Source: Caldilineaceae bacterium SB0661_bin_34 (GTDB lineage Bacteria; Chloroflexota; Anaerolineae; Caldilineales; Caldilineaceae). Taken from it: a stretch of 64,000 nucleotides of DNA. How positions within the stretch are numbered: position 1 is the stretch's first letter; each line of letters begins with the position of its first letter. The position numbers and the translations under genes were made by a program. Below, piece after piece: positions 42,220 to 50,678 of the stretch. The DNA lies in NCBI GenBank assembly GCA_009841145.1, contig VXMJ01000041.1:1-64000 (forward strand). The letters are read 5' to 3'. Under the pieces are notes generated by a model. The model made no database searches, was not told the DNA's origin, and worked only from the letters and a program-made list of their open reading frames with translations.

Positions 42220-42870
42220 TTACTTCGCGGCCTGCCAGTTGTGCAGCAGCAGGCGGGCCTTGGTGATCAGGACGTCTTGGCGAATGTCGCTGCCCACAAG
42301 CGAACTGCCGATTCCCACGCCCGCGGCACCAGCCTGGCGGTAGGAGCCGATATTGTCGGCGTCGATGCCGCCCGTGGGCACAAACTCCATGTCAGACAGC
42401 GGAGCTCTGACAGCTTTGAGATAGGCGGGATCGGGACAGGGGAACAGCTTCACCATGGTGCAGCCCAGCCGGCAGGCCTGTTGTGCCTCGGTGGGGGTGA
42501 AAATCCCCGGCAGGAACAGCACATCGGCCTCGACAGCGACCCGAACACTGGCCGGATCAAGGCAGGGAGACACCAGGAATTCGGCGCCGGCCTCAATGGC
42601 GGCCGCAGCCTGGTCCGCAGTACGGACGGTGCCCGCTCCGATCGCCATGCTGTCGTCGTATCGTTGGCGAAGGGTTTGAATTGCGGTCAGTGCGTCCGGC
42701 GTGTTCATGGTGATTTCCAGCAACGGCAGGGGCGCGGCCAGCATGGCATCCGCGATGGCAATGATCTCCGGCAGCGAATAGCCTCCGCGCACAATCGCCA
42801 CCAGCCCTTCATTCCGAACCCGCGTCCGCATCGCGGCCGTGTGCGAGCCGGCAGTTGTCCTTGCGGTCAT
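42220..42870 (-). CDS. eda: KDPG/KHG aldolase
   Basis: A 216-residue class I aldolase that splits 2-keto-3-deoxy-6-phosphogluconate (Entner-Doudoroff) and 4-hydroxy-2-oxoglutarate. LLEITMNTPDA holds the catalytic glutamate, and the Schiff-base lysine is in TMVKLFPC. EFLVSPCLDP and GIDADNIGSYRQAGA (phosphate-binding) follow family order. Its ATG overlaps the selD stop by four bases (ATGA). It may process the product of a sugar-acid dehydratase such as that at 8192. Confidence 0.88.
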   Translation of the reverse strand: MTARTTAGSHTAAMRTRVRNEGLVAIVRGGYSLPEIIAIADAMLAAPLPLLEITMNTPDALTAIQTLRQRYDDSMAIGAGTVRTADQAAAAIEAGAEFLVSPCLDPASVRVAVEADVLFLPGIFTPTEAQQACRLGCTMVKLFPCPDPAYLKAVRAPLSDMEFVPTGGIDADNIGSYRQAGAAGVGIGSSLVGSDIRQDVLITKARLLLHNWQAAK

Positions 42871-43928
42871 GTCACCTTGATTCCCGATCCGGCCGCAACC
42901 TCACCTATACACCAGCAGTCCTGACCGAGGTCCTGGCAAGCTTTTTCGAAGGTTTCCTCGTTTCCCTGCGGTACCGCGAGTAGCAGTCCGCCGCTGGTTT
43001 CTGCTTCCCAAAGTACCTGCCGGAGCTCGGGCACCACGGTGTCCGCGAAGCGCACGGACTGTCCGAAGTGCTCCGGATTACGCTGTGCCGCCCGGGTCTG
43101 CACTCCGTTTTGCGCGTAGGCGAGGACGTTTGGCAGCAGAGGCACTGAATCGGCCTTGATGCGGAGACCGCAATGGTTCTGTGTGTCGAGGCCCAGCATT
43201 TCACAGGCATGGCCTAACAGGCCGAAGCCGGTCACATCGGTGCCGCGCCTGGTACCGGACGTCCGGGCTGCTGTGGCGGCCGCCGCATTCAACGACAACA
43301 TGGACTGGATGGCCGCCTCCAGGTCACCGGGATCAATCAGCGAGTGTGTCTCCACGATGTGGGCCGTGGTCACGATTCCGGTCCCCAGGGGCTTGGTCAG
43401 CCACAACGTCTGGCCCGGATCCAGGCTTTCGCCCTTGGTGAGCAGATGGTCCGGGTCCCCCAGGCCGGTCACGGACAGTCCGTAGAACAGTTCGGGGTTC
43501 GTCACCGTGTGCCCGCCGGCCACTACGCCTCCGGCTTCCCGGACCTTGCGGGCACCGCCGGCCAGGATGGCGGACAAGGTATCCAGGCCAACCGTCTCCG
43601 GCATGCCGGCAATATTCAGGGCAAACAGGACTTCGCCGCCCATGGCAAAGACGTCGCTCATGGCATTGGCGGCCGCGATGGCCCCGAAGGTTTCGGGATC
43701 ATCGACGATGGGCGTGAAGAAGTCCGCGGTTTGGATCAGGGCCTGATCCTCATGCAGGGTCCATACGGCGGCATCGTCGGGCCGTTGGATGCCGGCACGC
43801 AAGGCTCCATTGCCGGAGCCCTGCATTTCGTTCAGTTGTCGCAGGACCTGCGACAGCTCCCTGGGCGGGAGTTTCGATGCTCAGCCGGCGCAGGAGGCCA
43901 GCGTCGTCAGCTTGATGTCAGGATCCAC
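42867..43928 (-). CDS. selD: Selenide, water dikinase containing selenocysteine
   Basis: SelD makes selenophosphate from selenide and ATP for selenocysteine and selenouridine synthesis. Reading from a GTG at 43928 gives VDPDIKLTTLASCAG, then UGA (43883-43881), then ASKLPPRELSQVLRQL and the rest. The UGA lies exactly where family members have the catalytic Cys or Sec of CAG(C/U)A, at residue 16, with the essential lysine three residues on. The downstream sequence forms a bacterial-SECIS-like hairpin. Treating the UGA as a stop would remove the active site, leaving an apparent gene from 43826. Total length about 353 residues fits the family. The GTG start is the only plausible start after an upstream TAG but lacks a clear ribosome site. 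Confidence 0.88.
43837..43855 (-). promoter_or_regulatory. Candidate bacterial SECIS hairpin in selD
   Basis: On the selD mRNA, TGTCGCAG-GTC-CTGCGACA forms a perfect 8-bp stem with GUC at the tip. The loop starts 33 bases after the UGA, within the 16-37 base spacing known for bacterial SECIS elements, and a G-U is present in the loop. A smaller hairpin (ctccc-gccca-gggag, 43857-43871) lies between it and the UGA. SelB would bind this to deliver Sec-tRNA. Confidence 0.65.
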
Positions 43929-44099
43929 AGGGCGTGCGGTTGGCTGTTGGGAACTGCGGTCAGTCTATGCGCTGAGTACGGAATTCCGGTGATTTTGTTT
44001 CCAGGCTGCCTTGGGTTGGCGGCTGTCCAGCCTCAGCCAAGGAATGCCCCGATGATTTGCCGGTGGCTTCATGTCATGACTCCGCGTGTTGGTGGGGGT

Positions 44100-45116
44100 T
44101 CAGATACCGTTCCGCCAACCGTCCTCCTTGTGGTACACGTAATCGGGATCGTCGGGACCCAGCACCTGCATGCGCTCCTCCGCGGCAAAATCAGCCATGA
44201 CCATGCGGATCGACTTGCGCGCCATGGCGATCAGGAAGTCGACAAGGACCGACAGGTCGCCTGCGTTTGCCTGCTGCATACCGTATAGGTAGGCGTTGCG
44301 ATCCTGCCGGTGTACCAGAACGGGCAGCCAGCCGTTGCGGACCAAGTGCCAGTTCAGGAGCACGCGCCCCGTGCGCCCGTTACCGTCTGCGAAGGGATGG
44401 ATCTGGATGAAGCGGTGGTGCAGCCAGGCCCCCGTCAGCAGCGGATTCCAGGCTGGTTCGTAGGTCACGTAGAGTTCCAGCAGGAGGTCCAGCTGAGGAT
44501 CCACCTGCTCCGGCGGCGCGTAGAGATGGATCGTGCCGTCGGGCCGCGTGGGATTGTTGGGGTAATCCTTCCACACTCCGCGTCGCAACCTGCGCTGCAC
44601 GGGCCGTCCCAGCATGTCCACTGCATGGTGTGTTTCCTGGTGGGCAGTGATTTGGGCGTGCAGCTCGCGCATGGAGTGCTTGGTGATGGGGCGGTCCTCG
44701 CGAATAAAGGCGTAGACCCTTGCGCCGGCTGCCATATGGTCCTGCAGCACAGTCACCAGATGCTCCGGCTCCACGTCCACGCCCTGTCGGCGCACATGCT
44801 CTACGCGGAAGCCTTCCCGCAGCAAGGTCTGCGTGACGCCATGGGTGGGGTTGTACAGGCCCTCGATCACACCGGTCTCGATGGCTATGCTGCGCTCCAG
44901 GCGTTCCAGACCCTCTCGGATCCGGTCTCGGACTGCGGGGTTCGCGCGCAGGTTTTGGAAGCGTAGGTTCCATTCATCCTCGTAGTCGAACGCGCGTTCC
45001 GTGTCCGCGGCAGCCAGGGGCTGAATGCCCTCCCAGTCAGCGTAACGGGTTTCCCTTTCCTTGTCTCGGTCGCCGCGCCGCGGCAGACGCGGTTCCCGCG
45101 GAGATTGCAGTTTCAT
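44100..45116 (-). CDS. Fic-domain AMPylase-family protein, class II
   Basis: A 338-residue Fic protein. The catalytic motif is HPFADGNGRTGR (240-251), with all conserved residues. An N-terminal inhibitory helix motif (S/T)xxxE(G/N) is present as TGVIEG (81-86), so this is an auto-inhibited class II enzyme. The beta-hairpin flap lies before the motif. The ATG at 45116 has GGAGA six bases upstream; the frame extends to 45191 but without such support. Fic proteins usually transfer AMP to target proteins; the target here is unknown. Confidence 0.88.
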   Translation of the reverse strand: MKLQSPREPRLPRRGDRDKERETRYADWEGIQPLAAADTERAFDYEDEWNLRFQNLRANPAVRDRIREGLERLERSIAIETGVIEGLYNPTHGVTQTLLREGFRVEHVRRQGVDVEPEHLVTVLQDHMAAGARVYAFIREDRPITKHSMRELHAQITAHQETHHAVDMLGRPVQRRLRRGVWKDYPNNPTRPDGTIHLYAPPEQVDPQLDLLLELYVTYEPAWNPLLTGAWLHHRFIQIHPFADGNGRTGRVLLNWHLVRNGWLPVLVHRQDRNAYLYGMQQANAGDLSVLVDFLIAMARKSIRMVMADFAAEERMQVLGPDDPDYVYHKEDGWRNGI

Positions 45117-45199
45117 GACCGGTCTCCAGTTGATGTTGCCGGACCTGCAGGGTTTGCCTGCGGCACCCCTTTCCAGTGTTCGTCGCAGCATACCCCATG

Positions 45200-49400: not shown

Positions 49401-50678
49401 TCAGAAGGCATTATCGAACCCCCAAACAAGTTCGGATTCGGCAATCCTCACGGTGTCTCCCTCTTCGATGCCCTGGGCGCGCAAGGTCTCGGAAACCCCC
49501 CAAGTGTCGAGGATGTTCTGGAAGCGCAGGGCGGACTCCGACAGATCCCAATTTGTCATGCGCGTAATTCGTTCCAGGCCGACACCGGCGACCTGCCAGC
49601 GGTCGGGACCCAGACGTGTCACGGTGAAGGCCCGGTCGTCTTCCGACACGGCGATCTCCGGAAGGTCGGGAAGGGTGCTTGCTTCCACTGCGGGAATCTC
49701 CTCGAGTTGGCGATCCAGAGCCCAAAGCAGGTCTTGCACATTCTCGCCGGTGACGGCCGAGATGGACCAGAAAGGCAACCCGCGCTTGTCCATGGTCGTT
49801 TTCAGTTCCGCTTCGGCGGCGCGGGCCTGTGGAAGGTCCCGCTTGTTCAGGACCACCACCCTCGGTTTGGCGGCGAGTGCCTCGCTGTAGTTGGCCAGCT
49901 CCGATTCGATTATCGCCATCTCCCCGCCCGGATCGTTCGACGATCCGTCCAGCAGGTGTACCAGCAGGCGCGTGCGTTCCACGTGACGAAGAAACTCGAT
50001 GCCCAGTCCCGTGCCCTGATGGGCCCCTTCGACCAAGCCGGGGATGTCCACGAAGATCCGTTGCCGGTGGTCCAGTTCCACCACGCCCAAGTTCGGCACC
50101 AGGGTTGTGAAGGGATAGTCGGCGATCTCCGGACGGGCTGCGCTGATGCGGCTGATCAGTGTCGACTTGCCGGCGTTGGGCACCCCGATGATGCCGACCT
50201 CCGCCACCAGTTTCAATTCCAGGTCGAGCCAGTGCTCCTGGCCCGGTTCGCCCTTCTCCGCCAGGCGCGGTGCTTGGTGACGAGCTGAACGGAAGGAGGC
50301 ATTGCCCCGGCCGCCGCGCCCGCCCCGGACCAGCAGGGCTCGTTGACCCTCGTCCGTCAGGTCCGCCATCAGATTGCCGTCCTCGGCATTGCGCACGAGG
50401 GTGCCAGCGGGCACCCGCACCTCCAGGTCCGCGCCGTACGCTCCCTGCTTGACCGTATTGCCTCCGCGTCCTCCCTTGCCGGCCCGGTAATGCACCTTTC
50501 GGCGCAGCCCGTGGAGAGTGTTCATGGATGCGTCCGCCACGGCAACAACATGTCCGCCCCGGCCGCCGTTGCCGCCGGACGGGCCGCCGCGCGGGGCGTG
50601 CTTCTGCCGCAGGAAGGCCACGATGCCATCGCCGCCCTGGCCGCCTTGGACCCAAATTCGCGCTCGGTCAAAGAACAT
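49401..50678 (-). CDS. obgE: GTPase ObgE/CgtA
   Basis: A 425-residue ribosome-associated GTPase. The glycine-rich Obg fold fills the first ~155 residues (VQGGQGGDGIVAFLRQKHAP). The G domain has G1 GVPNAGKSTL, G3 DIPGLVEGA and G4 NKRD. A C-terminal OCT domain (VTRLGPDRWQVAGVGLERIT) follows. It acts in 50S subunit assembly and stress control. Divergent from the 7TM-HD gene at 50862, with a TATAAT in the gap. Confidence 0.96.
   Translation of the reverse strand: MFFDRARIWVQGGQGGDGIVAFLRQKHAPRGGPSGGNGGRGGHVVAVADASMNTLHGLRRKVHYRAGKGGRGGNTVKQGAYGADLEVRVPAGTLVRNAEDGNLMADLTDEGQRALLVRGGRGGRGNASFRSARHQAPRLAEKGEPGQEHWLDLELKLVAEVGIIGVPNAGKSTLISRISAARPEIADYPFTTLVPNLGVVELDHRQRIFVDIPGLVEGAHQGTGLGIEFLRHVERTRLLVHLLDGSSNDPGGEMAIIESELANYSEALAAKPRVVVLNKRDLPQARAAEAELKTTMDKRGLPFWSISAVTGENVQDLLWALDRQLEEIPAVEASTLPDLPEIAVSEDDRAFTVTRLGPDRWQVAGVGLERITRMTNWDLSESALRFQNILDTWGVSETLRAQGIEEGDTVRIAESELVWGFDNAF

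Follow-up and report, generated by a model that had tools for sequence, protein, structure and literature searches.

The window, i.e. the whole stretch of 64,000 nucleotides that was analysed, contains a selD gene whose product, as judged from the sequence and its homologues, almost certainly carries selenocysteine (Sec) at the catalytic position through recoding of an in-frame UGA codon (Table 1). This window is part of contig C40 of a 4.34 Mb Caldilineaceae genome (98% complete), for which a complete Sec pathway and several probable selenoproteins are thereby documented. The Sec-SelD of this lineage is an ordinary case, being one of the commonest bacterial selenoproteins, and is less surprising than the initial annotation had held; its value lies in a correct re-annotation, and no known concept is altered.

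SelD was listed in 2006 as the second most frequent bacterial selenoprotein (38 of 285; PMC1794560). Among prokaryotic selenoprotein families it ranks second in size, and its Sec form was already described in early surveys of bacterial selenoproteomes (PMC1794560, PMC13188914). The Sec and Cys forms have been mapped over prokaryotes and eukaryotes (PMC4561486). Three selenoproteins had already been counted in Chloroflexi in PMC1794560, and no paper on the SelD of the Caldilineaceae lineage was found in the literature on Sec in Chloroflexota. The bacterial Sec-SelDs described (PMC1794560, PMC4561486, PMC13188914) belong to the same family and share the UGA at the position equivalent to Cys17, a bacterial SECIS element (bSECIS) just downstream, and SelA, SelB and tRNA-Sec. 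The present one differs from them in its host lineage only (Caldilineaceae, Chloroflexota), apart from two traits at the sequence level by which the mechanism is unaffected, namely a Ser where E. coli has Cys19, and the overlap of selD with a KDPG aldolase gene.

Table 1. Features of the selD locus and other probable Sec genes of the same genome (positions refer to the window unless another contig is named)
Feature	Position	Strand	Remarks
Sec-containing selD (selenide, water dikinase; selenophosphate synthetase)	42867..43928	(-)	stop TGA 42869-42867; probable GTG start 43928
In-frame UGA, Sec 16, opposite E. coli SelD Cys17	43881..43883	(-)	translation, alignment, homologues
Putative bacterial SECIS element: hairpin with a stem of 8 bp and an apical GUC loop (43847-43845)	43837..43855	(-)	33 nt from UGA to loop; -10.8 kcal/mol
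KDPG/KHG aldolase-like gene (eda family)	42220..42870	(-)	start overlaps selD stop (ATGA)
Fic-domain protein gene, upstream of selD	44100-45191	(-)	weak matches to Fic adenylyltransferase models
fdhA, formate dehydrogenase alpha, NCSRA-U-HSP (L146)	C47:14627-16630	(-)	UGA at the expected Sec position
SelW-like Rdx protein, EFC-LQ-U-NYSP (C-L-Q-U; L152)	C11:32107-32325	(-)	in-frame UGA
Thioredoxin-like redoxin, WTFG-U-INCKRTIPSL (L166)	C94:32600-33600	(-)	UxxC form of CxxC

Reading frame of selD and position of the UGA

Translation of 43928-42867 on the minus strand, with TGA taken as Sec, gave the sequence VDPDIKLTTLASCAG-U-ASKLPP..., ending at the stop codon 42869-42867, and this frame has a single in-frame UGA and is otherwise open. 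The read-through protein matched the selD model TIGR00476 with 320.2 bits (cut-off 125), covering positions 1-308 of the 311 of the profile, i.e. its full length. The initial annotation had continued the frame through the UGA at 43883-43881 to restore the N-terminus, with which the translation agrees, and all its coordinates were right. It had also held that automatic calling starts at 43826 and drops the active site; standard ORF calling indeed returned 42867-43826 (319 aa), with the active site missing among the first 34 codons of selD that are lost in this way. Such a loss probably affects many related selD genes, so that bacteria of this kind could mistakenly be taken to have no functional SelD.

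The E. coli SelD (PDB 3u0o), a Cys form in which UGA recoding is not needed, is homologous over residues 4-349 (E = 8.4e-58). Its catalytic Cys17 was aligned with U16 and its Lys20 with K19, which places the Sec at the catalytic position, as had been claimed. Regarding the start of the gene, the GTG at 43928 is preserved in three congeneric genomes, but no obvious Shine-Dalgarno sequence was found before it, and we therefore only infer this start; initiation is possibly leaderless or of an unusual type. The leader (window 43929-44060, minus strand) is partially conserved among congeneric genomes despite the missing Shine-Dalgarno sequence.

Conservation of the UGA among relatives

The SelD matches above the cut-off were listed for 150 genomes (the host genome itself and those of its genus, family and class). 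Among the matches listed, exactly one TGA was found in all SelDs but eight, which were four Cys forms, three fragments without the active site and one sequence masked there. Alignment of the active-site codons showed TGA at 108 loci and TGC or TGT at 13, with one further locus masked and one carrying AGC. The SelD of Larsenimonas rhizosphaerae (L139) had, according to the alignment, Ser (AGC) at the catalytic position (RHAGS-DCK), which is neither Cys nor Sec. After removal of rows with identical downstream sequence, 103 distinct Sec and 12 Cys SelDs were left, with UGA and a Cys codon, respectively, at the active site; an alignment with Cys- and Sec-type proteins had been proposed in the initial annotation. 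Moreover, three congeneric genomes presented an identical active-site UGA together with an identical downstream hairpin, and the closest named records were Caldilineaceae or Caldilineales MAGs with 93-95% protein identity, by which the host is assigned to the Caldilineaceae (Chloroflexota); an association with sponges can only be guessed at from the names of isolates.

No second SelD above the cut-off appeared in the host genome among the matches listed. For the class Anaerolineae, it seems somewhat probable that a self-dependent Sec-SelD is near fixation, usually as the sole SelD above the cut-off in a genome, with its SECIS lying within the conserved peptide L-[SA]-Q-V-[VL]-R and with rare conversion to Cys, unlike lineages with repeated SelD switching. 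If true, this would be a class-wide pattern and no new mechanism. A genome of the same family (G005) had a Sec-SelD together with a divergent Cys-SelD (L051 and L066), and this second SelD may be a horizontal acquisition or a contaminant.

The hairpin downstream of the UGA

The candidate SECIS hairpin has the sequence UGUCGCAG-GUC-CUGCGACA (43855-43837), with -10.8 kcal/mol when folded alone. In the bSECIS model, as given in PMC13188914, the loop has 3-9 nt, the upper stem 4-16 bp and the distance from UGA to loop 16-37 nt, with a G within the first two loop positions and a minimum free energy of -7.5 kcal/mol or lower. The selD hairpin lies within all of these limits (loop of 3 nt with G first, 8 bp, 33 nt and -10.8 kcal/mol). 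Loop and spacing were both correct in the initial annotation, which had described a SECIS-like hairpin with a GUC tip 33 bases past the UGA and had suggested a bacterial SECIS search. Besides its agreement with every published limit, the hairpin shows a compensatory change (see below).

A strict rule, demanding at least 8 uninterrupted Watson-Crick pairs, a loop of 3-5 nt starting with GG or GU and the right spacing, was satisfied by one of the 1603 TGA trinucleotides of the window (both strands). Under a loose rule, in which G-U pairs and loops of 3-9 nt were allowed, 8 bp were reached by 3% of TGAs, so the hairpin alone is suggestive and not decisive. The folding energy did not stand out from dinucleotide shuffles (z = -1.63) and was not significant against synonymous-codon shuffles (z = -1.02; mean of the 103 Sec sequences, -0.81), and nothing in the 64-kb window was matched in an Rfam scan at gathering thresholds. 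Because the energy was not significant against shuffles, covariation was used as the test of the hairpin.

The inner part of the stem, with five pairs from 28-42 to 32-38, was intact in 84 of the 103 Sec sequences vs. none of the 12 Cys sequences, an absence that is partly confounded by the higher divergence of the Cys-SelDs. Pair 28-42 links the first position of a codon for Ser, Ala or Thr with the third position of an Arg codon that varies synonymously, and it occurred as TCG/CGA (25), GCG/CGC (46) and ACG/CGT (5), i.e. U-A, G-C and A-U, respectively. It was Watson-Crick in 78 of 86 sequences, the permutation expectation being 38 and the maximum 54 in 20,000 permutations. Furthermore, these genes otherwise use CGA less than any other CGN codon (43 of 527 in the family, a count that includes the hairpin codon). 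On a tree built with the hairpin region left out, the contrasts at this pair were compensating or neutral and never opposite, the well-supported independent ones numbering two to four, where a sign test needs more for significance. Within the family, GCG/CGC was found in three genomes among TCG/CGA relatives, with both sides changed. Judged on the aligned sequences, the change at pair 28-42 is compensatory. It is the comparative evidence, from the conservation of the UGA as well as from this pair, and not the folding energy, that is decisive.

Selenocysteine machinery, alternative readings and neighbouring genes

The initial annotation had expected SelA, SelB and tRNA-Sec elsewhere in the genome and had named their absence as a ground for rejection. 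All three were found: selA with 478 bits and selB with 297 bits (324 with its C-terminal part), both above the curated cut-offs, and a tRNA-Sec with 67.5 bits, also above the cut-off, with anticodon UCA (ARAGORN). Moreover, a search covering a few selenoprotein families revealed at least three further genes that probably encode selenoproteins, each of them with one in-frame UGA at the expected redox position (Table 1), and the redoxin had matches with one TGA in congeneric genomes too. The Sec machinery would thus be in general use, selD being one client among several. On the other hand, mnmH/ybbB (tRNA 2-selenouridine synthase) and yqeB had no match in the host genome, with a positive E. coli control, so selenophosphate seems to serve Sec alone and selenium use in the host appears to be Sec only; the selenouridine trait is likewise unreported for Chloroflexi in PMC1794560. 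In the window, 35 places combined a UGA with a loose hairpin, of which only two had a CxxU or UxxC motif, namely selD and 50450(+), and no second selenoprotein is claimed there because the latter is antisense to a GTPase-like ORF (49401-50678, minus strand).

By analogy with well-studied families, the ribosome would reach the UGA at codon 16 of selD, SelB with Sec-tRNA-Sec would bind the hairpin (loop 33 nt further on), and Sec would be inserted in place of termination. The enzyme would then convert selenide and ATP into selenophosphate, which SelA would use to form Sec-tRNA-Sec, and, since SelA needs this selenophosphate, SelD would depend on its own product.

Three other readings of the locus were weighed. 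A sequencing or assembly error, in which the true codon is UGU or UGC and the protein an ordinary Cys-SelD, would take just one base change; nevertheless, it is exceedingly improbable, as the same UGA in three independently assembled congeneric genomes and in nearly all SelDs listed for the 150 genomes excludes it for practical purposes, with 103 distinct homologues sharing the UGA and a downstream stem that co-varies. The sense codon at 43881-43883 that had been proposed as a refutation was thus not encountered. It is also very unlikely that the gene starts at the ATG at 43826, with the upstream part untranslated or decayed: the longest standard ORF does begin there, but the peptide LTxxASCAG-U-ASK upstream of it is conserved across the phylum, the UGA is kept and not decaying in close relatives, and such a start would cost the catalytic residue and the Lys.

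Reassignment of the UGA in the genetic code, or its unspecific read-through (e.g. as Trp), is similarly improbable as an alternative to Sec, and no support for it was found. The selD gene itself terminates at a UGA (42869-42867), the replaced position is precisely that of the Cys, and the genome holds the complete Sec machinery along with further UGA-containing selenoprotein homologues, all of which argue against this reading.

Finally, the overlap between selD and the aldolase-like gene was arranged in the same manner in the three congeneric genomes. No functional link of the latter to selenium was evident, and it is a probable operon partner of selD that stands outside the recoding.
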